Positions 14,145-34,099 are shown, counted from the stretch's first letter. The stretch: 40,323 nucleotides of DNA from Acidobacteriota bacterium (GCA_016210985.1 JACQTD010000058.1:1-40323); one strand, 5' to 3'. Made by a program: numbers and translations. The notes: generated from the letters alone by a model not told the origin.

Positions 14145-14234
14145 AAAGCCTATCGCGGAGCGACGCCGGAACAACGGCTTGTTCACGGGTAGCGAAACGT
14201 GGAGATAGATGTTAGGTTATCTTCATCGGTACGC

Positions 14235-14957
14235 ATGAAGATCTATGGACAGCACCGATTCCCCGGCCGCCTCTTTGTCGTCGAAGGCATCGACGGTTCG
14301 GGAAAATCCACCCAGCTATCCCTTCTCCAGCAATGGTTGGCTTCTGAAGGATATGGCACGTTTTTTAGTGAGTGGAACTCTTCCCCGCTCGTGAAGGACA
14401 CGACCCGCCGTGGAAAGCGGAAGCGCATGCTGACGCCCACCACGTTCAGCCTCATTCATGCGACGGACTTCGCCGACCGCACCGAACGGGAGATCATACC
14501 GCCGCTGAAGGCGGGTGCGCTGGTGCTGGCCGACCGTTACATCTACACCGCGTTCGCCCGGGATGTGGTCCGTGGAGTAGATCCGGGATGGGTACGGAAG
14601 CTCTATCAATTCGCCGTGAAGCCGACGATCGGGTTCTATTTCCAGGTTCCGCTCAAGGTCGCCATGAAGCGGATTCTCGGCGGCCGGGATGCCATCAAGT
14701 ATTACGAAGCCGGGATGGATCTCGACTTGAGCGAGGATATCGAAGAGAGTTTCAGGCTGTTTCAAGCGCGCATCATCGAAGAATATGAGAAAATGGTCGA
14801 GGAATTCGGACTGACGGTCATCGATGCCACCCGGTCCATCGAGGAGCAACAAAACGAGGTCCGCGCGCAAATCAAACGCAAGCTGATCGGCGTAAAGAAG
14901 GTAAGGGTACAGCGGTGGGTAAATTTGAGTTCTACGGTTCAGGGCTACCGGGGATAG
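14235..14957 (+). CDS. Thymidylate-kinase-like P-loop kinase, copy 1
   Basis: This is a P-loop kinase of the dTMP kinase fold, 240 residues from the ATG at 14235; a GTG at 14199 is an alternative start. Walker A is intact, GIDGSGKST at residues 18-26. The DR(Y/F) motif is ADRYIYTAFARD. The loop that in true Tmk reads TREPGG is SEWNSSP here, and ATDFADRTEREIIP replaces the usual lid approach. The protein is thus a divergent family member, not the housekeeping dTMP kinase. It overlaps the next gene, a clear paralogue, by 43 bases. The unit continues into Ppx/GppA and CHAD genes, which suggests a substrate tied to polyphosphate or nucleotide phosphate pools. Fold is certain; substrate is unknown. 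Confidence 0.82.
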   Translation: MKIYGQHRFPGRLFVVEGIDGSGKSTQLSLLQQWLASEGYGTFFSEWNSSPLVKDTTRRGKRKRMLTPTTFSLIHATDFADRTEREIIPPLKAGALVLADRYIYTAFARDVVRGVDPGWVRKLYQFAVKPTIGFYFQVPLKVAMKRILGGRDAIKYYEAGMDLDLSEDIEESFRLFQARIIEEYEKMVEEFGLTVIDATRSIEEQQNEVRAQIKRKLIGVKKVRVQRWVNLSSTVQGYRG

Positions 14958-15643
14958 ACCTCGAGGAACTTAGCGGCAAGCTTATCGTGCTCGAGGGCAC
15001 GGATGGCGTGGGTCGCTCGACACAAGTTTCGCTGTTAAGACCATGGCTCGAGCACTCCGGTCATGCGGTGATGGACACCGGCATGGCGCGATCCGCCCTC
15101 GCCGGCAAAGGCATTAAGCGCGCTAAGGAGGGTCACACGCTGGGCGGAATCGCGCTGAGCCTTTACTACGCCACGGACTTCGCCGACCGGCTGGAGAACG
15201 AAATGATCCCGGCGTTGCGGGCGGGCTTCATCGTGCTCACCGACCGTTACATATACTCGATGATCGCGCGTGCGATCGTCCGGGGAGCTTCACCGGAGTG
15301 GATCAAACAGGTTTACAGCTTCGCGCTGAAACCGGACGTCATTCTCTATCTCAGGATTTCCCTCGACGACCTGACCCCTCGCGTCCTGCATACCTCGGGG
15401 TTCGATTATTGGGAATCGGGCATGGATCTTCGACTCGGCGAGGATCTCTATGACAGCTTCGTCAGTTACCAGACCGGGCTCCTTCGCGAATTCGACCGGA
15501 TGGCTGAATCTTATGACTTTAAGATTATCGACGGTTCAGGTACGATTGAAGAGACGTTCGGCAAATTGCAGGAGGCGATCACGCCGTTGATCAGGACAAA
15601 GCCCATGTTGGATCTCGCTGCTGAACCGGCCGAAGTTCCGTAG
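14915..15643 (+). CDS. Thymidylate-kinase-like protein, copy 2, with altered Walker A
   Basis: This 242-residue paralogue of the preceding gene starts at a GTG (14915) inside it. The shared blocks YATDFADRLENEMIPAL, TDRYIYSMIARAIVRG and YSFALKPDVILYLR show the tandem duplication. The Walker A loop reads GTDGVGRST (residues 28-36), with the nearly invariant lysine replaced by arginine at position 34 (codon CGC at 15014-15016). Such a change usually lowers or abolishes phosphoryl transfer, so this copy may be a regulatory or structural partner of copy 1 in a heterodimer, as Tmk enzymes are dimers. It ends 6 bases before ppx, so the four or five genes form one unit. Confidence 0.82.
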   Translation: MGKFEFYGSGLPGIDLEELSGKLIVLEGTDGVGRSTQVSLLRPWLEHSGHAVMDTGMARSALAGKGIKRAKEGHTLGGIALSLYYATDFADRLENEMIPALRAGFIVLTDRYIYSMIARAIVRGASPEWIKQVYSFALKPDVILYLRISLDDLTPRVLHTSGFDYWESGMDLRLGEDLYDSFVSYQTGLLREFDRMAESYDFKIIDGSGTIEETFGKLQEAITPLIRTKPMLDLAAEPAEVP

Positions 15644-16724: not shown

Positions 16725-17201
16725 ATGGTCAAGTTTAAGCCTGAAGACGGCGTCACGCTCGCGACGCCCCTCCACCAATGCGCCAGCCAGCTCATCCGGC
16801 GGCGCCTTGAGAGCATGTGGAAACGGAAGCCGGTTGTGCTCACCCGCGCGGATCCTGAGGGTGTGCACCAGATGCGCGTGGCCTCCCGCCGATTGCGGGC
16901 GGCCTTGGCCGATTTGAGCGGCGCGCTCCCGGAAAAGGGGGAACGAAAGCTGAGACGGCGTCTCCGCGCCCTCACCGACGCCCTCGGGGCCGTCCGCGTC
17001 CTGGATGTTCTTCTGGGATCGCTCCAGATCAAACGAACTAAGCTTCCGCCGCGGCTGCGCACGGGCGTGGACCCGCTCATCCGCAGATACCGGCGGGAGC
17101 GTACCCTTCGGCACCGGGAATTGACGTCGTTACTCGGCCAGCTCGACGAGATGGAATTCGAGAAGCGGTTCCATCGTTGGCTGAAGCCCGGAGGCAGGTG
17201 A
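16725..17201 (+). CDS. CHAD-domain protein, N-terminal half
   Basis: This basic 158-residue protein corresponds to the first helical repeat of a CHAD domain. The hallmark GVHQMRVASRRLRAAL carries the conserved His and Arg residues that bind polyphosphate, followed by ALTDALGAVRVLDVLL. CHAD domains normally hold two such repeats in one chain of about 280-320 residues, and the second repeat is in the next gene. Its TGA (17199-17201) sits inside an AGGTGA ribosome-site-like sequence 6-7 bases before the next ATG, so coupling is possible. Either this is a natural split or an ancestral gene was divided by a one-base frameshift. It lies 88 bases after ppx. Confidence 0.82.
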   Translation: MVKFKPEDGVTLATPLHQCASQLIRRRLESMWKRKPVVLTRADPEGVHQMRVASRRLRAALADLSGALPEKGERKLRRRLRALTDALGAVRVLDVLLGSLQIKRTKLPPRLRTGVDPLIRRYRRERTLRHRELTSLLGQLDEMEFEKRFHRWLKPGGR

Positions 17202-17208
17202 TCGTGGC

Positions 17209-17766
17209 ATGAAAGCCGTGAAGCTCCCCTCCGTCGGTCCGGCGGAGACCCTCGGACAAGCGGCTGCGAAAATCCTCTCCGTCCGTCTTCGTGAGACCTG
17301 GTCAAGGGTGCGCCCGGTGATGAAGCGCGGCCGTGCGGAGGCGCTTCACCGGTTTCGAATCGCCATCAAGCGTCTCCGATACTCCATGGAGATTTACGCA
17401 CCCCTTCTCGGCGCTGAATTCCACGACGTGCTGGCAGAGATCAAGAACGCTCAGGACATCCTTGGACAGTTGCATGATCGGGACATGGCACTGGAGCGAC
17501 TGGCCGATTATCGTGCGAAGGTCATTGCCGTGCCCGCCAGGGCTCGGAATTCATCCGGATACCCGAAGGGCAGAGTGCTGGAGGAGCGGGCACTCGCGAA
17601 ACTGGCTACGGACTACCAGCGGGAACGTGACCTCCTGTACCGGAGGTTTCTATCAAATTGGCGCAGGATGGGTCGGTCCCGCATACGGGCCAGACTGCTC
17701 CACGCGCTCACGGTTCAGGCTCAACCTGCTCCCTCTCGGGGACGAAGACCGGCCACCTCAAGGTGA
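17209..17766 (+). CDS. CHAD-domain protein, C-terminal half
   Basis: This 185-residue basic protein carries the second CHAD repeat. ALHRFRIAIKRLRYSMEIYAP holds the conserved His and the Lys/Arg surface, and AQDILGQLHDRDMALERL is the closing helix motif. Its frame is +1 relative to the upstream half, and 7 bases separate the first stop from this ATG. The two halves could assemble into one polyphosphate-binding surface. The last 59 bases (17708-17766) overlap the 3' end of the convergent phoR gene; the extra basic, proline-rich tail (QAQPAPSRGRRPATSR) is read from DNA that is antisense phoR. The tail may be a readthrough extension without function. Confidence 0.8.
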   Translation: MKAVKLPSVGPAETLGQAAAKILSVRLRETWSRVRPVMKRGRAEALHRFRIAIKRLRYSMEIYAPLLGAEFHDVLAEIKNAQDILGQLHDRDMALERLADYRAKVIAVPARARNSSGYPKGRVLEERALAKLATDYQRERDLLYRRFLSNWRRMGRSRIRARLLHALTVQAQPAPSRGRRPATSR

Positions 17767-18964
17767 ATCGCGACCCACGCGCCGGCTGGCTCTCCACCTC
17801 GATCTGCGCGCCCTGGGCGCGCACCAGGTGCTTCACAATGGAAAGCCCGAGGCCGGTTCCGCCGCGTTCGGTAGATCGCGACTTGTCAGCACGGTAGAAC
17901 CGCTCGAAGATGCGGGGCAAGTCGGAACTGGATATCCCGATCCCCGAATCCTCGATGTCGATGACCACCACCTGACCGTCCCGGGAAGCACGAATGCAAA
18001 CCTCCCCTCCGGACTGGTTGAACTTAATCCCGTTATCCGCAAGATTGAGCAAGACCTCTTCGAATCGCTTCGGATCGGCCAGAATCATCAGTCCCGGAGG
18101 CACGTCGCATCGGATGGCCACGTTGAATTCCTGCGCGCGAGGCGAGAGCGTCCCGGCGATCTCCGCTACCACTTGCGACAGGTCGACCGCGCAGGGTTCC
18201 AGGCGGAGACTACCAGACTCGATGGCCGAGAGGGAGGATATATCCTCCACCAGGTTGGTCAATCGCTGAGCGTTGCGTCGTATGGTTTCCAAAAAGCGGG
18301 TGTTGTTCTCCTCATCCTCCAATCCGCCGTCCAGAAGCGTATCCGCATAAGCCGTGATCGAGGTGATCGGGGTCCGCAATTCGTGCGAGACGTTGGTAAG
18401 GAACTCCTGCCGGACTCGCTCCAATTCCTCAAGGCGGGTGATATCGAGGAACACACCCGCCGCGCGGTTTCCCGGCAGCGGGGTGATCCTCAGCGAGAAT
18501 GATCGCGCTTCCACGCCGGCGTATACCGTCACCTGACCCTCGTAGCGCGTCTGACTCATGACGGCGGCCTGAAAGGCGTCGTAGATCGGCTTCTCCCGCG
18601 TTACCTCGGCAAGCCGTTTCCCTCGTAGCGCGTCAGCCGGCTGATGAAATATCGCTGCCGCCGCGGTGTTGGCGAAAAACAATTTGAGGTCCAGGTCGAC
18701 GACTACTACGCCGTCGTGCGCCCGGTCGAGAATCGACTGCAACCAGGCCCGACGCTCCTGCTCCGCCAGGATCCGCCCCGAGAGAAGATCGAACTGCCGG
18801 AGCACTTCGTATCGGATGTCCTGATCGTCCAGGGCGCCTTCCAGTTTCGGAACACGTCCCGCCAGGTCAAGTTTCCAGGCTCGCTGCCGCATGCGTTCAC
18901 GACGAAGAAAGATCAGGGTCACGAGGCCCCCGGCCACCAAAGCTGTTAGAAGCACCGTAGTCAT
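17708..18964 (-). CDS. phoR: PhoR-type sensor histidine kinase
   Basis: This membrane histidine kinase has 418 residues. It has a single N-terminal membrane helix (about 3-20), a linker, a PAS domain (about 72-175, DRAHDGVVVVDLDLKLFFANT), then HisKA with the phosphorylated His194 in FLTNVSHELRTPI. The ATPase domain follows, with N box NLADNGIKFN, G1 DSGIGI and G2 GGTGLGLSIVKH. The absence of a large periplasmic domain fits PhoR, which senses phosphate through the Pst/PhoU complex. The likely partner PhoB lies 15 kb away at 34109, next to pst. It is convergent with the CHAD genes and overlaps their end. PhoR is assigned from architecture and regional context; other PAS kinases share this layout. 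Confidence 0.8.
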   Translation of the reverse strand: MTTVLLTALVAGGLVTLIFLRRERMRQRAWKLDLAGRVPKLEGALDDQDIRYEVLRQFDLLSGRILAEQERRAWLQSILDRAHDGVVVVDLDLKLFFANTAAAAIFHQPADALRGKRLAEVTREKPIYDAFQAAVMSQTRYEGQVTVYAGVEARSFSLRITPLPGNRAAGVFLDITRLEELERVRQEFLTNVSHELRTPITSITAYADTLLDGGLEDEENNTRFLETIRRNAQRLTNLVEDISSLSAIESGSLRLEPCAVDLSQVVAEIAGTLSPRAQEFNVAIRCDVPPGLMILADPKRFEEVLLNLADNGIKFNQSGGEVCIRASRDGQVVVIDIEDSGIGISSSDLPRIFERFYRADKSRSTERGGTGLGLSIVKHLVRAQGAQIEVESQPARGSRFTLRWPVFVPEREQVEPEP

Positions 18965-19815: not shown

Positions 19816-19854
19816 TTCACATTGAATTAACATCTACGTAACAATCAGGTTACC
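19816..19854 (+). promoter_or_regulatory. Pho-box-like array of four 11-bp-spaced repeats
   Basis: Four hexamers stand exactly 11 bases apart: TTCACA (19816), TTAACA (19827), GTAACA (19838) and GTTACC (19849). PhoB/PhoP sites are direct repeats at 11-bp period, with TT(A/C/T)ACA in Bacillus and GTTCACC in actinobacteria. A CATAGA (19862-19867) could serve as the -10 box. The array lies 102 bases before the TonB receptor ATG, so that operon probably answers to phosphate starvation through PhoB. The repeats are seen; binding is inferred. Confidence 0.7.
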
Positions 19855-19955
19855 CCGCGGGCATAGAGTGCATCCGGTACTGCGGCATATGAGGTATCGT
19901 TGGTGGTTTCCAAGTTCGGCTTCAAGGAGGGAGAAGTGCGAGAGGATGTCTACCT

Positions 19956-22853
19956 ATGAGCAGAACTTTGATCTCCAGGCCCGCTAAATTGATCCTCGTT
20001 TTAGTTCTGAGTTGTCTGGTTTGCGCGTCGGCCCCCGGATCCACTCCTCCTGAAGGAAATGATCAGGGGACGGTCGCCGGCGTGGTGGTGGATGTCTCCA
20101 CCAACCGCAATATTACCAACGCGACGGTTATGGTGCCGGGAACGACGATTGCCGTCGAGACCGACCTGGATGGCAACTTCACCTTCCGTCTCAAACCCGG
20201 CACTTATCAAGTTCGAGTCAACCGTTCCGGCTATCAGGAGCACCTGTTGAGCAGTGTCATCGTTCATGCCAATCAAACGACCGGCGTTGAAGCGGCCTTG
20301 AGCTCGGAAGGCATGACGCTCGGGGAAGTTGTCGTGACGGCCGAGAACGGCGGCAGCGGATCAGAGGCTGGGCTCCTCGCGGACCGCAAAGCCGCGGGCG
20401 TCATGAGCGACGTGATCAGTGCGAGGGAAATGAGCCAGGACACCAGTTCCAATGCAGCCGGAATCCTGCAGCGAGTGGTGGGGATTTCGGTCGTACAGGA
20501 CAAGTACGTATACGTGCGCGGGTTGGGTGAACGTTACAGCAATACCGTCTTGAATGATTCCCTGTTGCCCACCACCGACCCGGACCGTCGCGTTGTCCCC
20601 ATGGATCTCATGCCGGCCCAGATGCTGGAGAATGTGAAGGTGTTCAAGACCTTCACACCCGACCAGCCGGGAGAGTTCTCCGGCGGACTGGTTAAGATCG
20701 CGGCGAAAGACTTTCCGCAGGGCAGCTCCTTGAAAGTTTCGATAACGGCTGGGGCCAACTCGCAGACCAGTTTCCGGGATTTCGTTACGTATCCGTCCGA
20801 TCGGCTTGACTGGCTGGGATTCGGAGCCGGCCGCCGATCGTTGCCGAGTATCATTCCCGCCGATGAGCGGCTGATTCGCGGCACGCCCTTCACACCCGGA
20901 TTTTCGCCGCAACAGCTTCAGACCTTCGGCCGGGCCTTCGAACCAATTTTGGAACCCGACCACGTTCACGCCCGCGCAAACCAGAGTTACAGCGTGTCCG
21001 GAGGCACGACGATCGGCAAGTGGGGCTTCGTGGGAGGGCTCACCTACTCCAACCAACTGCATACCCTTGAGGAGAACCGCCTCTACTACGTACTGGGCCG
21101 TGGCGGCCACCTCATCCCAAGAAGCGTTTTCGCCAGCGACGGATTCGTCCGTGACAACGGATTGGTCTCTACGCTGCAGGGAAGTGTTCCGGACGAATTT
21201 ATCACCAATGAGTTCCTGAAGGGTTACACCTCGGGTTCGAACGCCGTGCGCCTCGGAGGAACCGCGAACGTCGCGTACCGGTTGAGCACGAATCATAACC
21301 TGATGTTCAAGAACTTCTACACACACGAGGGCAACCGGAGTACGCGAACTTACGTAGGATGGTACGAAAGCCGCGGTACGCCGATTCGGGATGAGCGCCT
21401 TCGCTACCTGCAGGAAGGGATTTATTCAGGCCAGCTCTCGGGCGAGCATGTCTTTCCCGCATTCGGAAACAGTGTCCTGGCCTGGCGGTGGAACTATTCG
21501 CGCGCGACGCTCGATGAGCCCGACCTTCGAGAGAACATTTACGAATTCGATCAATCGGTCCAGCGGTTCAAGTTTTACAGCCAGTTACAGAGCAGCTTAC
21601 GGATGTTCAACACGATGAGTGAGAACCTCCGCGAGCCGGCGGTAGATTGGAGTACGTTCTTCTTTTTTCCGAATGTGACGCTCAATATCAAGGCCGGGGG
21701 ATCCTTCAGCAACCGCGATCGCGGCTTTCTCTCACGCCGGTTTCGATTTAACACCCGAGGGATAAAAGGTCTCGATTTTTACTCGCCGGCCGAGCAGCTG
21801 CTCGCGCCCGGGAACATCCGGCCGGATGGCTTTGAGATCTTTGAAGAAACTCGGCAGACCGATGCCTACACGGGCAGGCACGACATCTGGGCCGGGTATG
21901 GGATGGCCGATTTTACACTCAGGAAGTGGCGGGTCATCGGCGGTCTCCGGGTGGAGCGATCCGACCAGCAGGTCTTGACCTTCACGCCCATCAGCCGCGA
22001 CCCCGCGACCGTGACGGCGGGACAGGAGACTACCGATCTTCTCCCCAGCATTGGCCTGGTTTACGGATTCACCGGGAATATCAATCTGCGCGCCGGCTAC
22101 AGCCAGACGGTCTCCCGGCCCCAGTTCCGGGAACTCAGTCCCTTCGAATTCACCGATGTGACCGGCGGTCCCTCGGCCGTGGGCAATCCTAACCTGGTCC
22201 GCACGAAAATCCGGAACTACGACCTGCGCTGGGAATGGTTCTTCGCGCCGCAGAAGTTGATCGCGGTCAGTTTCTTTTACAAGGACTTCACGAACCCGGT
22301 CGAACAGGTCATTCAACCCTCGAATGAACTGACCGTCATTTCGTATCGCAACGTGCGGGCCGCGAAGAACCGCGGGCTGGAAGTGGAGTTCCGCAAGCGG
22401 CTCGGGGCGCTCTCCCCGCGATTGGAAAACCTGAGCGTGATGTTCAATTACACCTACGTGAACTCCACCGTGGAGATTGGTGAACAGGAAATCTCGGTCG
22501 TGACGTCGCTTAAGCGACCCCTGGTGGGTCAATCGGCGAATGTCCTGAACGCCACCGTACACTACGAGATCCCTCGCTGGAATCTGGAGGCGAGGACGAT
22601 GGTCAATTACGTCGGGGAGCGCATCAGCGATGTGGGTGCCTATGGCCTGCCCGACATCCGCGAAAAAGGATTTCCTACGCTCGACCTCTTCGTTTCGAAG
22701 AGGTTTCTGGGTGAGGCCAAGCGCATGGAGGCGAAATTCTCCGGAGAGAATCTGATCGATCGGGAAGTGCGATTCAATCAGGGTCCAATTCCGTACTGGT
22801 ATTTCCGCCGGGGTCGTTCGTTCAGTGTCAGCCTCTCCTACACTTTCTTTTGA
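19956..22853 (+). CDS. TonB-dependent outer-membrane receptor, probable Pho regulon member
   Basis: This 965-residue outer-membrane transporter is driven by TonB. After a signal peptide (MSRTLISRPAKLILVLVLSCLVCA) comes a carboxypeptidase-regulatory-like beta domain (about 38-120, GTVAGVVVDVSTNRNITNATVMV). The plug domain (about 140-260) contains SNAAGILQRVVGISVVQDKYVYVRG, and a 22-strand barrel ends in the signature SVSLSYTFF with terminal Phe. The Pho-box array upstream predicts induction in low phosphate, so the cargo is likely a phosphate-containing compound. An AAGGAGG-led 7-codon frame (GTG 19936 to TGA 19957-19959) overlaps this ATG, while AGAGGA (19941-19946) lies 9 bases before it and is the more likely ribosome site for the receptor. 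A secreted beta-helix protein follows 54 bases downstream. Confidence 0.92.
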   Translation: MSRTLISRPAKLILVLVLSCLVCASAPGSTPPEGNDQGTVAGVVVDVSTNRNITNATVMVPGTTIAVETDLDGNFTFRLKPGTYQVRVNRSGYQEHLLSSVIVHANQTTGVEAALSSEGMTLGEVVVTAENGGSGSEAGLLADRKAAGVMSDVISAREMSQDTSSNAAGILQRVVGISVVQDKYVYVRGLGERYSNTVLNDSLLPTTDPDRRVVPMDLMPAQMLENVKVFKTFTPDQPGEFSGGLVKIAAKDFPQGSSLKVSITAGANSQTSFRDFVTYPSDRLDWLGFGAGRRSLPSIIPADERLIRGTPFTPGFSPQQLQTFGRAFEPILEPDHVHARANQSYSVSGGTTIGKWGFVGGLTYSNQLHTLEENRLYYVLGRGGHLIPRSVFASDGFVRDNGLVSTLQGSVPDEFITNEFLKGYTSGSNAVRLGGTANVAYRLSTNHNLMFKNFYTHEGNRSTRTYVGWYESRGTPIRDERLRYLQEGIYSGQLSGEHVFPAFGNSVLAWRWNYSRATLDEPDLRENIYEFDQSVQRFKFYSQLQSSLRMFNTMSENLREPAVDWSTFFFFPNVTLNIKAGGSFSNRDRGFLSRRFRFNTRGIKGLDFYSPAEQLLAPGNIRPDGFEIFEETRQTDAYTGRHDIWAGYGMADFTLRKWRVIGGLRVERSDQQVLTFTPISRDPATVTAGQETTDLLPSIGLVYGFTGNINLRAGYSQTVSRPQFRELSPFEFTDVTGGPSAVGNPNLVRTKIRNYDLRWEWFFAPQKLIAVSFFYKDFTNPVEQVIQPSNELTVISYRNVRAAKNRGLEVEFRKRLGALSPRLENLSVMFNYTYVNSTVEIGEQEISVVTSLKRPLVGQSANVLNATVHYEIPRWNLEARTMVNYVGERISDVGAYGLPDIREKGFPTLDLFVSKRFLGEAKRMEAKFSGENLIDREVRFNQGPIPYWYFRRGRSFSVSLSYTFF

Positions 22854-22907
22854 TTGTCGCCGGCAGAATATCCCTTTGCAGTGACATCCGAATCGGAGAA
22901 AAACCCT

Positions 22908-24194
22908 ATGAACCTGAAAGTGATCAGCGCCTCGGCCGGGCTCATCCTGATCCTGGCCTCACTCTTCACACCCTTGACCCGCTCGGTCGCGGCCGATGGA
23001 TCAGCGATCATCGTCGTAACCGGCGACATCACCTCCAGCGTGACCTGGACGTCGACCAACACGTATCTCCTCAACGGCGCCGTCTTTGTCAAGGAACCCG
23101 CCATCCTTACGATTCAGCCCGGAACGACCATCAAAGGGCTGGATCGCAGCTTCCTCGTCATTGAGCGGGGCGCGAAGCTCATGGCGGAAGGAACACCGGC
23201 GGCGCCGATCGTCTTCACCAGCTCGCAGGAACCCGGGTTCCGCAGCCCCCGGGACTGGGGTGGATTGTGGATCAACGGCCGGGCCCCGATCAATACTCCG
23301 GGAGGTCAGGAACTTGGAGAGACCGGCATCACCGGCACCTATGGCGGCGGAGCCGATCCCGACCCGCACGACAATAGCGGTATCATTCGTTATGTCCGCA
23401 TCGAATTCGCGGGCTTCCCGGTTGCTCCCGACGCCGAGATCAACAATTTCACGCTCGCCGGGGTTGGTGATGGGACGAGAGTCGATCACATCCACGTCAA
23501 CCGGGGCGCGGATGACGGCATTGAGTTTTTCGGCGGTACGGTAAACGTAAAGTACATCCTCGCGACCGGAACGGGCGACGACGGATTCGACTGGCAGATC
23601 GGTTACGTTGGGAAGGTCCAGTTCGTGGTGATCCAAGCCGACAACACGGTCGATCCCGCCTCCGACCGGGGTATCGAAGCGGACAACAATGAGAATAACA
23701 ACAATCTCCTGCCCGTCTCCGATCCGCAGCTCTACAATTTCACCATCGTCGGCGACAAGGGCCCGGGCGGCGGCACGGCCGGCATTGTACTCCGCAGGGG
23801 CACCGCCGGAGACCTAAGGAACTTCATCGTGGTCAACTACAAGGGCGCCGGAATCGATATCCAGGGCGGAGTGGCACAGGCTCGTGCTGGCAGCGGCGAA
23901 CTCACGATCACCAACTCGATCTTCTTCAACAACAACCCAAATTTCCAGGCGGGTGTGAGCGATTTAATGTTAAGCCAGGTGGCCACGATCCTGCGTTCCG
24001 ATCCCCTGCTGCGGGATCCGCGGAATCTGACCGCCCCTGATTTTCGTCCGTTGGAGGGATCGCCGGCGCTCGATGCGAGCAACGTCGCCGTTCCTCCGGC
24101 CGATGGGTTCTTCACCCCGGTTGCATTCATGGGGGGTGTCGATCCTCAGAATGACTGGACCCAGGCCGCCTGGATCAGCGTCGTCAGGAACTAG
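22908..24194 (+). CDS. Secreted right-handed beta-helix protein
   Basis: This 428-residue exported protein starts at ATG 22908, 8 bases after GGAGA; the signal peptide is MNLKVISASAGLILILASLF. The body consists of parallel-beta-helix coils, seen in ILTIQPGTTIKGLDRSFLV, ERGAKLMAEGTPAAPIVFTS, YVRIEFAGF and VDHIHVNRGADDGIEFFGG. It lacks a recognisable lyase active site. The late ADNNENNNNLLPVSD stretch is Asn-rich. It follows the TonB receptor in the same unit, and this receptor plus beta-helix pairing recurs in Bacteroidetes and proteobacterial Pho genes. It may bind or present a phosphorylated ligand at the surface. That role is inference. Confidence 0.78.
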   Translation: MNLKVISASAGLILILASLFTPLTRSVAADGSAIIVVTGDITSSVTWTSTNTYLLNGAVFVKEPAILTIQPGTTIKGLDRSFLVIERGAKLMAEGTPAAPIVFTSSQEPGFRSPRDWGGLWINGRAPINTPGGQELGETGITGTYGGGADPDPHDNSGIIRYVRIEFAGFPVAPDAEINNFTLAGVGDGTRVDHIHVNRGADDGIEFFGGTVNVKYILATGTGDDGFDWQIGYVGKVQFVVIQADNTVDPASDRGIEADNNENNNNLLPVSDPQLYNFTIVGDKGPGGGTAGIVLRRGTAGDLRNFIVVNYKGAGIDIQGGVAQARAGSGELTITNSIFFNNNPNFQAGVSDLMLSQVATILRSDPLLRDPRNLTAPDFRPLEGSPALDASNVAVPPADGFFTPVAFMGGVDPQNDWTQAAWISVVRN

Positions 24195-24254
24195 GGAATT
24201 TCAACCACACACGCCCGGCTTCTACGGCGGGCAACGCGCGAGTGCGAGAGAGCC

Positions 24255-24791
24255 ATGTTCAGGATGACCTGGAAATTTACCGAAAGCCGCGCTTCCGCTC
24301 TCGCGCTGTGCATCCTGGGCCTTCTGTTCTCGTCGGGCTGCAGCATCATGGGTAGGGAGCCGCGAATGATGCCGAACGCCCAGCCGAGCCCGGAGGTCCT
24401 GGTTGAACAGGTGCTTGAGGCCCTCGCCCGTAACGATGGCGGGAGCCTCAAGAACCTGGCGCTTACAAAAGAAGAATTCTGCGATATCCTCTGGCCTGAA
24501 CTGCCTTCCAGTGAGACACCGAACCTGACGTGCGACTGGGTCTGGAACACGTTCGGACCGAGCAGCCTGAACAAGCTCAGTCAGACCTTGGGAGCGCATG
24601 CGGGCAGGAAATACCAATTGGTCCGCCTACGGTGTGTCAGGGGAACAACCGCCTACAAGAGTCTCAAAGTCCATGAGGATTGCCGGGTTGTTGTCGGGGA
24701 CGACGAAGGACGCGAGCGCGAGCTCAAACTATTCGGATCGATCCTGGAAATGGATGGTCAGTTCAAGCTCTGCAATTTTATCGTCGATTAA
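24255..24791 (+). CDS. Hypothetical lipoprotein
   Basis: I do not recognise a family. The 178-residue product has a lipoprotein signal with lipobox LFSSGC (about residues 24-29), followed by a short linker and a compact domain. Five further cysteines occur in the mature part (EEFCDIL, NLTCDW, LRCVRG, HEDCRV, KLCNF), so disulfides are plausible outside the cytoplasm. A start two or three codons later is possible. It lies 60 bases after the beta-helix gene in the same direction, so it may be the third gene of the Pho-controlled unit, but it could also be independent. GGAGCGACGCTCC (24896-24908) downstream is a weak hairpin without a T-run. Confidence 0.6.
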   Translation: MFRMTWKFTESRASALALCILGLLFSSGCSIMGREPRMMPNAQPSPEVLVEQVLEALARNDGGSLKNLALTKEEFCDILWPELPSSETPNLTCDWVWNTFGPSSLNKLSQTLGAHAGRKYQLVRLRCVRGTTAYKSLKVHEDCRVVVGDDEGRERELKLFGSILEMDGQFKLCNFIVD

Positions 24792-25414: not shown

Positions 25415-25525
25415 AACCATTGATGACCGAAATTCAGTCATTAAGGAGTGGAGCCTGGTTGGCACGAGAGACCAGTTCATCCACTACGTTCAGACGAATG
25501 TACGGGCCTACCTCGGAGGTGGCTG

Positions 25526-26170
25526 ATGGACAGCCTCGCGATCGGTGTAGTCTCCGCGCTCTGGCTGGGCATTCTAACCTCGATAAGTCCTTGCCCACTG
25601 GCAACCAATATTGCAGTGATGTCCTTCATCGGGAAAGACCTGTCTTCCCCGCAGCAAGTTTTTCTGACCGGAATTTTTTACACTCTTGGGAGAACCCTGG
25701 CCTACTCGGTCCTGGCGGCCTTGGTGATCGCCAGTGTCCTGGCCATCCCGGAGGTTTCGTTCTGGCTCGAGACCTACATGAACAAACTCCTCGGGCCGAT
25801 CCTGATGAGCGACCTGCCCGAAGCTGTCTTGGAGTTACTGCCGCGTCTGCGCGACCGGAACTTTACCCGGATCCTTCTCGTGACCTTGCCGGAGGCGACC
25901 CCCGTGCACGAGGCGGGGCGGTTGCAGCAGGATCTGCTGCGGGCAGGCATCGAGCCATTTGCCTGGGTCATCAACCAGAGCTTTTCCGGCGACGCATTCC
26001 GCGATCCGGCGCTGGTCGAGCGCGGAAGCCGCGAGTTGCCGTACATTGCTGAGGTAGGCGATCGATATAGTAGCCGCGTGGCTCTGATTCCGTGGAAGGC
26101 CGAGGCTCCGGTGGGGCCCGAGAGACTCAGAGGTCTCGCGACCAACTCGATTCTATTGGCCGAGGTGTAG
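25526..26170 (+). CDS. In-frame chimera: ArsG-type permease N-terminus fused to ArsA ATPase C-terminus
   Basis: The 214-residue product joins two unrelated pieces. Residues 1 to about 93 match the start of ArsG-family (DsbD-like) arsenical efflux permeases: membrane helices, [19 protein letters not shown], and [12 protein letters not shown] up to [10 protein letters not shown]. From about residue 94 (near 25805) the text is the end of an ArsA arsenite-pump ATPase: [41 protein letters not shown] and [22 protein letters not shown]. The remaining ArsG helices and all ArsA nucleotide-binding motifs are gone, so neither original activity should remain. A deletion through an arsG-...-arsA operon would explain it. 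GGAGG lies 6 bases before the ATG, so it is probably still translated. It ends 2 bases before acr3. Confidence 0.85.
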
Positions 26171-27252: not shown

Positions 27253-27645
27253 TGCGCTCATTGACGGGATCCCTCCTTGCTCCAATTCACATTGGTGCCT
27301 CCAGTCTTGCTCGTGACACTGGTCATACGTCAGCTGGTGTCTGTGGACCAAGAATTGTCCCGCCTCCGCCAGGTTCTTGCTCACCTTGGCCGGGAACAGT
27401 GCCTTTGGTGACCGGATGGATTGCGGCCGAAGAGCCGTTCAACGCGACGGACACGTTGCATACTTCGTGATTGCGGGATAACTTCCAACCCTTTATCTGT
27501 TCTCGAGATCCATGAGCTTGATCACCCTGTGATCCACAGTTGGGCAATCATTTGGCGGACTTGGAAAATTGAGATAGTGCCTGACCTGATACATCGAACA
27601 TGCTTGCCGGTCGGGCAAGTCGTCACCAGGAGGGGGAAGATCATC
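27253..27645. other. Intergenic region between acr3 and porin; no gene seen
   Basis: About 390 bases hold no frame with protein character. A perfect hairpin, CTTGCC-GGTCG-GGCAAG (27603-27619), lies just before the porin ribosome site AGGAGG (27628-27633) and could affect its translation. No Pho-box-like repeat was found here, in contrast to the pstS and TonB promoters. No terminator with a T-run was found after acr3. Confidence 0.5.
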
Positions 27646-29445
27646 ATGTTCGCAATAAGATTCTATGTCATGCTCCTGATTTCCGCAGGTTTAACGCTCG
27701 TTGTCCATATTAGCTCGGCAACGGCCGGTCCACGCCGGGATGACCGCCGGGTGCAATCCTCAGAGACCTCCGAGCAAGCGGGTACCGGGAAGGAAAGTCT
27801 GAGAATGGACGATGGAGAGATTTCGACCAAGGGGCGGCCACGGCCGGAGGTCGAAATGGGTACGAAGCGTGATGCGGTGAGGTCCCGCTTAAATGATGCC
27901 GATTCCGATGACCTCGATCGGCTGAGAGAACAAATCGCCATCCAGGGAGCACGAATCGAGGAGCTGCGCCAGGCACTTGAAGAACAACGGCAGTTCATCT
28001 TGCTGAACCTGCAGTTCCTGCGGGAGCGGCTAGCGCCGAACGACCCGTCAATCCGGCTGCCCGAGGCAGATCCGGAAGGGCGATCATATCCCGGACAGAA
28101 TCGTACCGGTCTGGATGGGGTGCTTGCAGTCTCGGAGTCGGCGCCGTCGATCGAGCACGCGGCGAGCGTGTCATCCACTCCGTCACCAGGCCAGGCGGAA
28201 ACGCTCGCTAAGAAAGTTGAAGAGACCTCCAGGAATCTGGGCGGTTTCAAGTTCAGCGGCGACTTCCGCCTCCGCGCGGATATACAGTTACGCTCCGGCA
28301 ATGCCATTGGCCCGCCGCTGCAGAGCGCTCGCGCCCGGTACCGGCTGCGGCTGAACATCGAGAAGGAAATCGATCCCCGCTTCTCCTTCCGTCTTCAGCT
28401 GGCAACCGGCGCGCTTAATTCCGGCACGACCATGGACCAGGATTTTGCCGGCATGGTGGCCAGGCATCCCTTTTCGATTTCAGAGGCCTATGTGGACTTT
28501 CACCCGAACCCCAGACTCTCTCTCCGTGCGGGCCGGATGGAGGAAGTATTCGCCGATGGCATGAGATTCCTCTGGGACGACGATGTCCGCTTCAACGGGT
28601 TCCATCAGATCCTGACGATTCCCTTCAATTCGAGTCGATTCGGTGTCCATGCGCTCCAGTTCCGAGCCGGGGAGTACATTCTCAGCAATCCCAATATCGT
28701 GATTCTCCCGGCTTCCTCGCCGTTCGTACTCGCCGGCTACCAACCCGGACAAAAGGTGAGAGCCGCTAAGCTCTTTCATCCCGGTTTCGTCATCAAGGGG
28801 AATGTCAACGAACGATGGGGGCATCAATTCACGTCCGACATTCAGATCTTCCTGAATCCCAATCAGATCCAGCTGGCAACGCTGCCCAGCGGATTCCCGG
28901 TCCTGGTCAGTAACGCGCTGGGCATCGCACTATCGGGTCCGATCGGAGCGCGGGGGAACGGAACCACCACCGCTGATGGAGCCATCCTCAGCGCGCGGGA
29001 CTTCCAGATCGTACGGGCAGCCTATCGTCTGGAACGGAATGGGCTGATGTGGGGGAGCCGCGAAATGCCACTCTGGTTTGATTTGCAGGTTGCGCGAAAC
29101 ACCGGAACATCGAAATTGCGTGACGCGCTCTTGGCCTCGGTTAATCTCGGGGCTGTCAGGAAGTACGGTGACACTCGGTTTCTCTATCAGTTCGCGCTTA
29201 AGGATGCCAACTCACTTATTTCGCAGTTCACCGATGATGACATCGGTACCGGTATCGGGGTCAATGTGGCCACGCATGCACTGCGGTTTGATCTCGGTTT
29301 GACCCGGTTCCTGCAGTGGCAGAATCTGTTCTTCATTCAGAACGAACGCCGGGGCAACAACCCTGCGGAACAGTTTTTCGTCCCCCTGCAGAGAGAAGCC
29401 AAGACCACCTACAGGTATCTGGGTCAGCTGTTGTTCTCTTTTTAG
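27646..29445 (+). CDS. Putative outer-membrane porin (Porin_5-like) with N-terminal coiled coil
   Basis: This 599-residue outer-membrane protein starts at ATG 27646 after AGGAGG. It has a signal peptide (MFAIRFYVMLLISAGLTLVV), a charged segment, and a coiled coil at about 85-130 (DLDRLREQIAIQGARIEELR). A beta-barrel follows from about residue 200 (FKFSGDFRLRADIQLRSG) and ends LGQLLFSF with terminal Phe. The FSGDFRLR opening and the ALQFRAGEYILSNPN pattern suit the Porin_5 putative porin family. It lies just upstream of pstS, so passage of phosphate, and unavoidably arsenate, is plausible, but no direct sequence feature proves the substrate. Confidence 0.8.
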   Translation: MFAIRFYVMLLISAGLTLVVHISSATAGPRRDDRRVQSSETSEQAGTGKESLRMDDGEISTKGRPRPEVEMGTKRDAVRSRLNDADSDDLDRLREQIAIQGARIEELRQALEEQRQFILLNLQFLRERLAPNDPSIRLPEADPEGRSYPGQNRTGLDGVLAVSESAPSIEHAASVSSTPSPGQAETLAKKVEETSRNLGGFKFSGDFRLRADIQLRSGNAIGPPLQSARARYRLRLNIEKEIDPRFSFRLQLATGALNSGTTMDQDFAGMVARHPFSISEAYVDFHPNPRLSLRAGRMEEVFADGMRFLWDDDVRFNGFHQILTIPFNSSRFGVHALQFRAGEYILSNPNIVILPASSPFVLAGYQPGQKVRAAKLFHPGFVIKGNVNERWGHQFTSDIQIFLNPNQIQLATLPSGFPVLVSNALGIALSGPIGARGNGTTTADGAILSARDFQIVRAAYRLERNGLMWGSREMPLWFDLQVARNTGTSKLRDALLASVNLGAVRKYGDTRFLYQFALKDANSLISQFTDDDIGTGIGVNVATHALRFDLGLTRFLQWQNLFFIQNERRGNNPAEQFFVPLQREAKTTYRYLGQLLFSF

Positions 29446-29551
29446 CCGCCACTTCCGGTACAATGCCTTGTTCCTGCTAGGATTTGGATCACGTCAGGAG
29501 CGAAGGTTGGGTTGTTCAACCAGTGCGGTTATAGAGGGAGGGGATGGACTT

Positions 29552-29572
29552 GGATTTAACACGGATTTAACA
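29552..29572 (+). promoter_or_regulatory. Pho box upstream of pstS
   Basis: The ten-base unit GGATTTAACA occurs at 29552-29561 and again at 29563-29572, exactly 11 bases apart. A looser GTTAAT lies at 29585-29590. The TTTAACA core agrees with the TTAACA repeat found before the TonB receptor gene. This is the expected layout for PhoB binding ahead of pst genes. The site is 121 bases before the likely pstS start at 29693 and would make the ATG at 29600 part of the leader. Confidence 0.7.
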
Positions 29573-29692
29573 TTCCTCCGGTAGGTTAATTCATTCTAAG
29601 TGATTTTTTGTTTTCGCCTTTTTACATTTTCCACTAAGCCGCTGCCCGGTTGCGGTAGACTGATCAGTTTCCTTCGATTTGAGGCTTTTCCT

Positions 29693-30754
29693 GTGCGAAC
29701 TCAGCTTTCGATGCTCTTATTGTGTCTGCTCATCCTCTCCACTGGCGGGTGCGGAGGGACGAAGGACGGCGCGGAGGAAGTCTCGCTACAAGGCGCCGGC
29801 GCCACGTTTCCCTATCCGCTCTATTCCAAATGGATCAGTGAATACCACAAGGTCAATGCCCGGGTCCGCCTCGATTACCAGTCGATCGGCAGCGGGGGTG
29901 GAATCAAGCAGCTCACTGAACGGACGGTGGATTTCGGTGCCAGTGACGTTCCGATGACGGATGAACAGCTCCGGACGGCCGCGAAGGAAGTCCTTCACAT
30001 TCCGAGCGCCTTGGGAGCGGTCGCCGTCATTTACAATCTTCCGGGGGTCGCTTCGGGTCTCAAGATCACTTCCGATCTGCTGGCCGACATTTTTCTGGGA
30101 AAGATCACCAAGTGGAATCATCCAGGGATTTCCGCTCACAATCCGGGCGTGTCGATGCCGAATGCAGACATCCTCGTCGTTCATCGGACCGATGGCAGCG
30201 GCACGACCGCGGTCTTCGTGGATTATCTCAACAAGGTGAGCAGCGAGTGGGTAGGACGCGTGGGCAGAGGAACCTCCGTGAACTGGCCCGCGGGCATCGG
30301 CGGAAAGGGGAATGAGGGTGTGGCGGGCCAGGTCAAGCAGACGGCGGGTTCGATCGGATATGTGGAACTTGCATACGCGGAACAGAATCAAATCGCCTAT
30401 GCTGAAATCCGGAATCGGTCCGGTATTTTTCTCAAGCCTTCGGTGGCGAACATCACCGCGGCGGCGGCCAGTATGTCGGCGCAGGTTCCTGACGATTTGC
30501 GAGTCTCGATCACCGATGCCGAGGGACCTGCGGTCTATCCCATTTCGGCGCTGACCTACATCCTTGTTTTTCGCGAACAGGTCGATGAACAGAAGGGCAA
30601 GGCGGTGGGGGATTTCCTCTGGTGGGCGATTCATGATGGCCAAAAGTTCACCGGGCCGCTCCAGTACGCTCCGTTGCCCGATGACCTGGTGAAAAAGACC
30701 GAGACCAGGCTGAGACTGCTCTCCTTTAATAACCAGCCGCTCCTGCACCGCTGA
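29693..30754 (+). CDS. pstS: Phosphate ABC transporter, phosphate-binding protein PstS
   Basis: PstS captures phosphate outside the inner membrane for the PstCAB channel. From a GTG at 29693, 8 bases after GAGG, the product has 353 residues and a lipoprotein signal ending in LSTGGC; an ATG at 29711 is an alternative. Ligand motifs are GAGATFPYPLYSKW, the SIGSGGGIKQLTER phosphate loop, DFGASDVPMT and RTDGSGTTAVFVDYL, all typical of the family. The Pho box upstream predicts starvation control. It heads the gene set pstS-pstC-pstA-pstB-phoU-phoB, with the next start 4 bases after its stop. Confidence 0.96.
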   Translation: MRTQLSMLLLCLLILSTGGCGGTKDGAEEVSLQGAGATFPYPLYSKWISEYHKVNARVRLDYQSIGSGGGIKQLTERTVDFGASDVPMTDEQLRTAAKEVLHIPSALGAVAVIYNLPGVASGLKITSDLLADIFLGKITKWNHPGISAHNPGVSMPNADILVVHRTDGSGTTAVFVDYLNKVSSEWVGRVGRGTSVNWPAGIGGKGNEGVAGQVKQTAGSIGYVELAYAEQNQIAYAEIRNRSGIFLKPSVANITAAAASMSAQVPDDLRVSITDAEGPAVYPISALTYILVFREQVDEQKGKAVGDFLWWAIHDGQKFTGPLQYAPLPDDLVKKTETRLRLLSFNNQPLLHR

Positions 30755-30758
30755 ATTG

Positions 30759-31742
30759 ATGAGTTCTCTCGCGCTACGGGATAATGAACAGTCCGGGCTG
30801 ATGGCCCGCTGGTCGCGCAGCCGGCATCGTTGGAGCGACGTCCTGTTCCGGCGCCTCACGGCTTGCTTCGCACTGAGCATTCTGATCCTCCTCGTTTGGA
30901 TGCTGATCACCCTCGCGCTGAATGCCCGGCAGGCCCTCGCGCGATTCGGCTGGGGTTTTCTGTGGGGTCGGACCTGGGACCCTGTCAGGGAGCAGTTTGG
31001 AGCGCTGCCTTTTGTGTACGGTACCATCGTCTCATCGACGTTGGCGCTGTGCATCGCAGTACCTTTGAGTCTCGGTGTGGCCATTTTCCTGTCCGAGCAT
31101 GCTCCGCGCGGATGGGAAAACGTTGTGGCCTTCCTGGTGGATACGCTCGCGGCGATCCCGAGCGTGATCTACGGGCTTTGGGGAATCTTTATTCTCTCGC
31201 CGGCGTTGCGCAATTACATTGAGCCGTGGCTGGCGAGCACATTCGGGTTCCTTCCTTTGTTCCAAGGTCCGCCGTATGGAATCGGGATGTTGGCAGGGGG
31301 CATCATCCTCGCGATCATGGTCCTCCCGATCATCACGGCTGTTTCCCGCGATGTGCTGCAGGCCGTGCCTAATACACAGCGGGAGGCCGCGCTCTCCCTC
31401 GGCGCCACCCGCTGGGAGACGACCAGGGTGGTCCTGGCACATGCCCGTGCGGGACTCACTGGCGCGGTGATTTTGGGATTAGGCCGCGCGATCGGGGAGA
31501 CCATGGCGGTTACGATGGTGATCGGGAACCGGCCGGAGATCTCCTATTCACTTTTTGACCCTTCCTACACCATCGCCAGCGTGATCGCCAACGAATTCAA
31601 CGAGGCGACCTATGAGCTTTACGTGCAGGCGTTGATTGAGTTGGGCCTGATTCTCTTCCTGGTAACTTTAATCGTGAATGCGGTGGCACGACTTTTGGTC
31701 TGGAGCGTAACGAGAAGGACTCGAGAGGTGCAGCGGGTATGA
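30759..31742 (+). CDS. pstC: Phosphate ABC transporter permease PstC
   Basis: This is one of two inner-membrane subunits of the phosphate transporter, 327 residues with about six membrane helices. The cytoplasmic coupling loop that contacts PstB is REAALSLGATRWETTRVVLAHARAGLTGAVILGLGRAIGE, spanning the EAA motif. The N-terminal cytoplasmic segment (about 1-30) is basic. The start is the ATG at 30759, one codon after a TTG; it lies 4 bases past the pstS stop. Its stop overlaps pstA by four bases (ATGA), so expression is coupled. Confidence 0.96.
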   Translation: MSSLALRDNEQSGLMARWSRSRHRWSDVLFRRLTACFALSILILLVWMLITLALNARQALARFGWGFLWGRTWDPVREQFGALPFVYGTIVSSTLALCIAVPLSLGVAIFLSEHAPRGWENVVAFLVDTLAAIPSVIYGLWGIFILSPALRNYIEPWLASTFGFLPLFQGPPYGIGMLAGGIILAIMVLPIITAVSRDVLQAVPNTQREAALSLGATRWETTRVVLAHARAGLTGAVILGLGRAIGETMAVTMVIGNRPEISYSLFDPSYTIASVIANEFNEATYELYVQALIELGLILFLVTLIVNAVARLLVWSVTRRTREVQRV

Positions 31743-32590
31743 TCGACCCACTCCGTTACCGAAAGGTAGTCAATGGCGTCATGACGGGAGCGACGTTCAT
31801 TTGCGCGCTAGCTGTCCTCGCCATCCTTTTCGCGATCCTTGGATATATCGTCGCCCAAGGCATCGCCGCGCTGAATATCGACTTCCTGACCAAGTTGCCG
31901 AAACCGGTCGGCGAATCCGGTGGTGGGATCGCGCACGCCATTGTCGGATCGATGCTGCTGATCGGTATTGCCATCCTCCTGGGTCTGCCGTCAGGGATTC
32001 TTGCCGGGCTGTATCTGGCCGAGTTCGGTAAGAACAAACTCGGGCGATTCATCGAGTTCGTCACGGACATTCTGGCGGGTACGCCTTCGATCATCGTCGG
32101 CATTTTTGCCTATACCCTGATCGTCCTGCCGATGAAGCGGTTCTCCGCCTTTGCCGGGGGTGCGGCGCTCGCCCTCATCATGATCCCGATCATTACCCGG
32201 ACTACACAGGAGATCATCCAGCTCGTGCCGCAGACCTTACGGGAGGGGGCCCTGGCCCTGGGAGCGCCGCAGTGGCGCGTGACGCTCGGAGTCGTGCTGC
32301 GATCCGCGGCCGGCGGGGTGGCGACGGGCGTAATGCTCGCGATTGCCCGCGTCGCCGGCGAGACGGCGCCGCTGCTTTTTACCGCCCTGGGGAGCCACCA
32401 TTGGAGCACGGCCCTGGACCGCCCGGTTGCGTCGCTGACGGTCACGATTTACGATTACGCGAAGGCCCCGTATGATGACTGGCATGCCCAGGCTTGGGCA
32501 GGGGCACTGGTCCTGGTAATGATGATCGGCATGACCAATTTGGCGGTAAGGCTTTTCACCCACAGCCGATATTCAGGTACTCATCCATGA
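31739..32590 (+). CDS. pstA: Phosphate ABC transporter permease PstA
   Basis: This second membrane subunit has 283 residues and about six helices. The EAA loop for PstB is [47 protein letters not shown] in part, with the invariant glycine. [14 protein letters not shown] and [16 protein letters not shown] match other PstA proteins. It overlaps pstC and pstB by four bases on either side (ATGA at both joints), which fixes the starts and indicates tight translational coupling of the transporter subunits. Confidence 0.96.
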
Positions 32591-33423
32591 TGACCAAGGC
32601 GAAATTAGCTATGCCTGTAAACTTGCTGGAGAAGTCCACGGCTGAGCCGATGAAGCGGCCCGCCCTGGATAGCAAAGTCACGATCGAGCAACTGAATTTT
32701 TTCTACGGCCCGGTTCAGGTATTGTTCGACATATCGCTCACGATGCCCAGCCGGCGAGTCACCGCCTTCATCGGACCATCCGGATGCGGCAAATCGACCC
32801 TCCTGCGGACGCTCAATCGGATGAACGACATCATCCCGCACGCGCGTCTCCAGGGTCGCGTGAAGATCGATGGGACCGATATCTACCAGACCGGCATGGA
32901 TGTCGTGAGGCTCCGACAGCGCGTGGGAATGATCTTTCAGAAGTCCAATCCGTTTCCAAGATCGATTTTCGAGAATGTAGCCTATGGCCTGCGCATCAAC
33001 CAGCTGGTCCGGTCCCGGCGGGAGCTCGATGAGCGGGTGGAACAGGCGCTCCAACAAGCTGCGCTCTGGGACGAAGTGAAGGACCGGTTGAAGGAATCGG
33101 CCTTCGGGCTCTCCGGCGGGCAACAGCAGCGTCTCTGCATTGCCCGCGCGCTTGCCATCCGTCCCGATGTCATCCTAATGGACGAACCTGCCTCGGCCCT
33201 CGATCCGATTGCGACGCAGAAAATCGAAGAGCTCATCGTGCGACTGAAGGAGGAATATACGGTCGTCATTGTCACGCACAATATGCAACAGGCCGCCCGT
33301 GTCTCGGATCATACCGCCTTCTTCTGGATGGGCCGGCTTATTGAGTTTGATCCTACGGAGAAGATGTTCACCAAACCGGCACATCAGATGACGGAGGATT
33401 ACATCACCGGTAGGTTTGGCTGA
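32587..33423 (+). CDS. pstB: Phosphate ABC transporter ATP-binding protein PstB
   Basis: The cytoplasmic ATPase powers phosphate uptake. The ATG at 32587 gives 278 residues, overlapping the pstA stop. Walker A is GPSGCGKST (residues 63-71); the Q loop lies in [19 protein letters not shown], a PstB hallmark. The signature is LSGGQQQR, Walker [14 protein letters not shown], and the switch histidine is in [12 protein letters not shown]. About 25 residues of N-terminal extension precede the core, with no clear role. All catalytic motifs are intact. phoU follows 10 bases later with GAGGAG before its start. Confidence 0.97.
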
Positions 33424-33433
33424 GGAGTGATGT

Positions 33434-34099
33434 ATGCCTGAACACCGCTTAGTCGATCATGATTTGAACCGGTTGAGAGATAAGGTCCTGCTCATCGGCG
33501 GCGAGGCCGAGCGCGCCGTCGCCGAGGCCATGCAGGCTTTCATCTCGAGAGACAGTCAGCGAGCACGCGCCGTAGTCGATCATGACGACGCCATTGACGC
33601 CATCGAGTTGGAGATCGACGATTTGTGCATCGACGTGCTGGCCTTGAGGCCGCCCGTGGCCGGGGACCTGCGGTTCGTCATGACTTGCGCGCGGATCGCT
33701 CCGGTACTCGAACGCATCGCCGATCATGCCTGCAATGTGGCGCGGCATGCCCTGGCCCTGAACCTGGAGCCCCAGGTCAAGCCTTTCATCGATCTTCCGG
33801 AGATGGGGCGGCTCGCTGTCGAGATGGTACACGCCAGCATGGACGCGTTTGCCACGCGTGACGTGAGCCAGGCGAGAGCATTGATTCTCCGCGACCATCG
33901 CATCGATGACCTCTATAATCAGATTTTCCGGGAGCTCCTGACCTACATGATCGAGGACCCGCGGACGATCTCACGCGCCACACACCTGCTTTTTGCCGCC
34001 AAGCACCTCGAGCGCATCGCCGATTACGTGAAGAATGTCTGTGAGCAGGTTGTTTACATGGTGGAAGGGCGGGTCATCAAGCACGTCGGCATCGAATAG
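33434..34099 (+). CDS. phoU: Phosphate signalling regulator PhoU
   Basis: PhoU links PstB to PhoR and shuts the Pho response when phosphate is plentiful. The 221 residues form two tandem three-helix PhoU repeats. The metal-binding motif E/DxxxD appears in ERIADHACNVARHA (first repeat) and LERIADYVKNVCEQV (second repeat), the family hallmark. GAGGAG lies before the ATG. It sits between pstB and phoB, so the uptake and control genes share a transcript. Loss of the nearby phoR from this operon does not affect the assignment. Confidence 0.95.
   Translation: MPEHRLVDHDLNRLRDKVLLIGGEAERAVAEAMQAFISRDSQRARAVVDHDDAIDAIELEIDDLCIDVLALRPPVAGDLRFVMTCARIAPVLERIADHACNVARHALALNLEPQVKPFIDLPEMGRLAVEMVHASMDAFATRDVSQARALILRDHRIDDLYNQIFRELLTYMIEDPRTISRATHLLFAAKHLERIADYVKNVCEQVVYMVEGRVIKHVGIE

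Follow-up and report, generated by a model that had tools for sequence, protein, structure and literature searches.

Relatives of the system analysed here are known from Caulobacter and Flavobacterium, where they are induced by phosphate starvation (PMC2996285, PMC8115612, PMC11208175). In Caulobacter crescentus, the surface lipoprotein ElpS is made at low phosphate and released in a manner dependent on the type II secretion system (T2SS), and the published gene order is elpS (cc0170)-cc0171-gspC-N (PMC2996285). ElpS itself is no phosphatase, and neither the purified nor the immunoprecipitated protein has phosphatase activity; overproducing ElpS raises that activity, deleting elpS left it unchanged, and cc0171 was reported to be constitutive (PMC2996285). 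The Caulobacter PhoB regulon includes the T2SS and several TonB receptors (PMC11208175). The ElpS data in the literature leave room for a role in uptake without establishing one. In Flavobacterium johnsoniae, the ElpS-related lipoproteins FI and FII adjoin TonB-dependent receptors (TBDTs) in the clusters PUSIII and PUSIV and are strongly induced by phosphate starvation; FII lies beside phoBR and OprP, the order of PUSIV being OprP-PhoR-PhoB-TBDT Fjoh_0545-FII Fjoh_0546 (PMC8115612). In phosphate-starved Flavobacterium, the most abundant exoprotein is one such relative (PMC8115612).

The locus that we compare with these systems lies in a stretch of 40,323 nucleotides (here, the window), which makes up an entire 40.3-kb contig. 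The contig comes from a draft genome of 3.85 Mb and 79% completeness, whose source organism probably belongs to the class Blastocatellia (Acidobacteriota). The core of the locus is a trio of genes for a TonB-dependent receptor, a right-handed beta-helix protein (here, BHP), and a small probable lipoprotein (here, LIPO), preceded by a repeat array (Table 1).

Table 1. Features of the window (positions counted from its first nucleotide)
Feature	Position	Strand	Basis or remarks
PhoR/PnpS-type sensor kinase	17708-18964	-	Context; probable regulator
Four PhoB-type repeats, 11-bp spacing	19816-19854	+	Sequence, shuffles, matrix, pattern scan
-10-like hexamer TAGAGT	19864-19869	+	Fixed distance from last repeat, as in pst and orthologous promoters
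TonB-dependent receptor, 965 aa	19956-22853	+	CarboxypepD_reg, Plug, beta-barrel
BHP, right-handed beta-helix, ElpS family, 428 aa	22908-24194	+	Signal peptide without lipobox
LIPO, small probable lipoprotein, 178 aa	24255-24791	+	Conserved domain, possibly NTF2-like
Porin (Porin_5; weak Porin_O_P)	27421-29445	+	Similar-looking coiled-coil/porin genes with same array in two relatives
pstS promoter array	29545-29587	+	-10 TAGGTT at 29582-29587
pstS-pstC-pstA-pstB-phoU operon	29600-34099	+	Homologs in relatives in same order
PhoB-type response regulator	34109-34828	+	

An earlier, sequence-only reading of this DNA had described four TTAACA-like hexamers, spaced by exactly 11 bp and resembling PhoB boxes, ahead of the receptor gene, and this array proved to be far beyond chance. 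The repeats start with TTCACA at 19816, TTAACA at 19827, GTAACA at 19838, and GTTACC at 19849. Scored as four repeats, the receptor promoter reached 25.1; among 300 dinucleotide shuffles of its upstream sequence, the highest score was 3.7. To avoid circularity, we also trained a matrix solely on pst promoters of other genomes. Searches for PstS in relatives mostly returned no match or a distant one, and usable training promoters came from G010 (L118), G035 (L119, with six near-perfect repeats), and G001 (L122) only. With this matrix, position 19816 ranked first among all window positions on both strands (score, 30.2; mean, -35; standard deviation, 9.6), and the pstS array was among the next-best positions. 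That reading also noted a core common to this array and the one upstream of pstS. The pstS array is real, but it is weaker than had been stated: it has two perfect TTAACA repeats, at 29556 and 29567, and its flanks (TGGACT at 29545 and CCGGTA at 29578) are degenerate. Both promoters have the same -10 geometry, with a TANNNT hexamer (TAGAGT and TAGGTT, respectively) 15 nt after the start of the last repeat.

The pattern used to scan the 3.85-Mb assembly comprised three repeats and, at the fixed distance, a -10 hexamer (TANNNT). Exactly two sites matched with at most 1 mismatch, namely, the receptor and pstS promoters. Since these two and related promoters had served to design the pattern, their recovery was expected, and the weight of the result lies in nothing else matching as well. 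Allowing 2 mismatches gave three matches, compared with two for a reversed-pattern control, and further targets may be missing from the scan because the draft is incomplete.

The sequence-only reading had named absence of the 11-bp pattern from orthologous promoters as a result that would refute it. The pattern is in fact kept there, with arrays upstream of most orthologous operons. Under a three-repeat model, the array had a P value of 0.003, the limit of 300 shuffles, at 13 of 16 orthologous receptor loci (window included) and of 0.013 at the other 3. Nine receptor promoters (the window, L024 to L028, L030, L032, and L033) carry the TANNNT hexamer 15 nt after the start of the last repeat, as do four pst promoters at the same distance; the arrangement is less clear in L031, L034, and L036. 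The strict pattern occurs 0 to 5 times per genome in seven relatives, and these matches include the trio promoters of G010 and G032, the pst promoters of G001 and G010, and sites ahead of coiled-coil/porin-like genes in G002 and G004. Outside the class, an 11-bp array was found at a P value of <0.05 in 35 of 73 operons (3.7 expected) and at <0.01 in 15 (0.7 expected); these P values derive from 150 shuffles and a score set by hand, and loci that are related do not count as independent. Caulobacterales homologs have upstream CTGTCA-like repeats that might be PhoB boxes.

Could the array be a chance pattern, with the genes lying outside the Pho regulon? A simple IUPAC consensus scan of the window with 3 mismatches allowed did not by itself find the receptor array significant, which would fit such a view. 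A direct-repeat finder with a 12-base minimum likewise missed the array because its repeats are short and degenerate. Against chance stand the assembly-wide match, common to the pstS promoter only, and the retention of both array and fixed -10 position in orthologous promoters, and we consider this explanation very improbable indeed. That the receptor promoter is of the Pho type, and would be under the same phosphate-starvation switch as pst, is well supported by these comparisons.

Two further arrays were seen in relatives. In G006, a second Pho-type array (L029, 4817 to 4858) lies just 3' of the lipoprotein gene and precedes a gene for a further small, probable lipoprotein, and in G001, a perfect array precedes a 120-aa open reading frame (ORF) upstream of the pst operon (L126, 4221 to 4264).

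The surroundings of the trio are rich in phosphate-related genes. In order, the window has tandem thymidylate-kinase-like genes, ppx, CHAD genes, the PhoR/PnpS-type kinase, a SixA-like phosphatase, and the array with the trio, followed on the 3' side by an arsenic cluster, the porin, and pstSCAB-phoU-phoB. The two thymidylate-kinase-like genes (14199 to 15643; L030, 3882 to 5281) adjoin ppx and the CHAD genes and might not be true dTMP kinases but polyphosphate-related ones; in G001, both copies, ppx, a CHAD fragment, and a SixA-like gene are again found beside the trio. The CHAD domain is divided between two adjacent ORFs (16725 to 17766; profile positions 2 to 135 and 138 to 228 of 228), a break that might stem from a frameshift, a stop, or an assembly error. 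The arsenic genes include a single ORF (25448 to 26170), flanked by arsR and an ACR3/SBF-family carrier gene, in which a DsbD-like membrane region runs into the C-terminal portion of an ArsA ATPase; this ORF looks like a fusion by deletion. An IS110-like transposase gene, recognized from its translated sequence only, lies near the contig start (1666 to 2796).

Receptor, BHP, and lipoprotein genes run in one direction, as the sequence-only reading had it, with gaps of 54 and 60 bp and no terminator-like site on the plus strand within the trio. As an operon, the three genes are conserved in Blastocatellia, other Acidobacteriota, Latescibacteria, and Poribacteria. Within the class, members whose BHP is intact keep the trio, the exception being L034, where the third gene was not found. 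A degraded remnant, with short receptor, BHP, and lipoprotein pieces in order, is present in G029 (L037, 9531 to 10309).

Searching genome contigs with the single query P0002 confirmed nothing, and with the alignment A1 as the query it yielded 580 relatives. The BHP-receptor pair is found in many phyla, and TonB/ExbBD, phoBR, or pst genes often accompany it. Of 94 BHP loci, 83 have a receptor, in every case on the BHP strand and in 71 cases within 3 kb; many BHP loci that lack one are short contigs. Full-length relatives of the window receptor adjoin BHP genes in Myxococcota, Poribacteria, Bacteroidota, and others, and none of seven other TonB-dependent receptor loci tested in its own genome matches it at an E value of 1e-3. 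At the sequence level, a partnership of receptor and BHP is well supported. In gammaproteobacteria and deltaproteobacteria, the BHP loci add DUF3450, ExbB, ExbD, and TonB genes, and in Poribacteria they add a TonB gene. Co-occurrence with pst in other phyla, which had been proposed as a check, was also found: pst genes lie near BHP at 5 of 94 loci, where 0.4 to 0.8 would be expected on the assumption of one or two pst operons per 4 Mb, and phoR plus phoB at 11 of 94.

This linkage bears on the cargo. TonB receptors most often carry metal complexes. An operon coregulated by PhoB might import something other than phosphorus, e.g., a metal or a cofactor for phosphatases; the operon contains no phosphatase or phosphodiesterase gene, and the acidic cluster of BHP described below could bind calcium or another metal. 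We nonetheless regard such cargo as unlikely, given the repeated linkage to phoBR and pst across several phyla, the repression of the F. johnsoniae relatives under iron or nitrogen limitation (PMC8115612), and the failure of iron depletion to induce elpS (PMC2996285). A plain metal receptor was considered as well and rejected or downgraded. With TIGR01782 (TonB-Xanth-Caul receptor), the window receptor scores 245 bits, below the curated cutoff of 310, and its match to the SusC model is confined to the N-terminal domain. A SusD-family partner was rejected, as none of the trio genes gave a SusD match.

For BHP, we take the ATG at 22908 as the start, where the ORF tool had placed a TTG start at 22854. 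It shares 39% identity over 300 aa (E value, 9e-48) with a T2SS-linked Caulobacterales protein at L144, where the order is BHP homolog (lipobox LASC), receptor, GspD, GspE, GspF, and GspG. Compared in this way through L144 and the published gene order, BHP is by homology classed as a variant of the ElpS family and not as an ElpS, because its lipobox is absent. By a regular-expression test, no lipobox occurs in BHP or in other Blastocatellia members, and one is present in 56 of 95 family members. Some gammaproteobacteria and Caulobacterales have two or three tandem BHP domains per protein or several BHP genes in a row (L090, 9800 to 13894; L103, 8525 to 11323; L112, 10064 to 13924).

Searches of Pfam and NCBIfam with 20 diverse BHP members gave no family above threshold, the window BHP having a subthreshold Beta_helix match only, and sequence and profile searches of the PDB with BHP gave no relative. 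The AlphaFold2 model of BHP (pLDDT, 80.8; pTM, 0.83) is mostly beta, with successive short strands, and its best Foldseek matches are nearly all right-handed beta-helix proteins (best E value, 0.012; none significant). An acidic cluster (D202, D203, E206, D224, D225, D228, and E257) is invariant in the 20 diverse and 95 aligned members, and in the model, E206, D228, and E257 sit on strands that belong to successive rungs. Such a surface could belong to an enzyme: BHP might act chiefly as an extracellular glycosidase- or lyase-like enzyme on a phosphorylated polymer, with the receptor importing the product and ligand presentation being secondary. The invariant acids on successive rungs are consistent with this, as are the best fold matches, which are polysaccharide-cleaving beta-helix enzymes (GH87, PL6, and polygalacturonases), and the modelling of Flavobacterium relatives on polygalacturonase (PMC8115612). 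The fold matches, however, are not significant, no Pfam enzyme family was found in the 20 members, and ElpS lacks phosphatase activity (PMC2996285), which leaves a chiefly enzymatic BHP possible but rather doubtful.

LIPO had been called cysteine rich, and this is only mildly so: the mature part has six cysteines, of which two (75 and 93) are conserved in Blastocatellia and not in Poribacteria. Its model (pLDDT, 87.3) has weak NTF2-like fold matches only (best E value, 0.045), and the family was seen in Blastocatellia, other Acidobacteriota, Latescibacteria, and Poribacteria.

Taken together, we consider it likely that the trio is a Pho-controlled, TonB-powered system for outer-membrane uptake of a phosphorus-bearing ligand, which BHP would capture or trim while the lipoprotein tethers it. 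At low phosphate, PhoR-PhoB would bind the 11-bp repeats, which stand where a -35 element would otherwise be, and would turn on the trio along with pst. The receptor would serve as a TonB-powered outer-membrane channel. BHP, probably exported and acting at or near the cell surface, may capture or partly process, by binding or by cutting, what we infer to be a phosphorylated compound, probably a polymer or glycoconjugate, contacting it through the conserved acidic, probably metal-binding face and handing it over to the receptor. The small lipoprotein may anchor or couple BHP, since the window BHP has no lipid anchor of its own.

More tentatively, though we find it plausible, ElpS-type beta-helix proteins may make up one more class of partner dedicated to TonB receptors, found across phyla and additional to SusD-like lids and other surface lipoproteins, that is Pho controlled and captures or trims phosphorus-bearing polymers; the three-part form of Acidobacteriota, Latescibacteria, and Poribacteria would then have an extra lipoprotein standing in for the lipid anchor in Blastocatellia. 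The BHP family spans many phyla and has invariant acids, yet it has neither a Pfam/NCBIfam model nor a solved relative. Its close pairing with a single receptor subfamily, its Pho-type promoters, and often its own TonB/ExbBD turn a "hypothetical lipoprotein" into a concrete hypothesis about the passage of phosphorus compounds through the outer membrane of diderm bacteria, testable in Caulobacter and Flavobacterium.

The sequence-only reading had found no described system to name for this set. Described relatives do exist in ElpS/CC0171 and PUSIII/PUSIV, and the three-part form differs from them. Like ElpS/CC0171 of C. crescentus, the window has a homologous beta-helix protein with a TonB receptor next door and phosphate-starvation control. 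ElpS, however, is a lipoprotein encoded 5' of the receptor by a type II secretion operon, whereas the window BHP has no lipobox, lies 3' of the receptor, and is followed by an extra third gene for a lipoprotein, with no gsp genes seen in the window. PUSIV-type clusters share a TBDT followed by an ElpS-related protein near phoR/phoB and a porin, a relation that rests on PMC8115612 and on Bacteroidota loci here (e.g., L082 and L107, with TBDT-BHP beside phoR/phoB); they differ in that FI and FII are lipoproteins, pst is not reported in the PUSIV cluster, and LIPO has no described counterpart there. SusCD/PusCD of Bacteroidota also combine a TonB channel and an extracellular partner in one operon, but that partner is SusD there and a beta-helix protein here. 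The system is not new in kind; its cross-phylum unity, its uncurated family, and its three-part variant make a long-unexplained protein directly testable. It is of a poorly understood kind already glimpsed in Caulobacter and Flavobacterium, and what is new here is the three-part variant.
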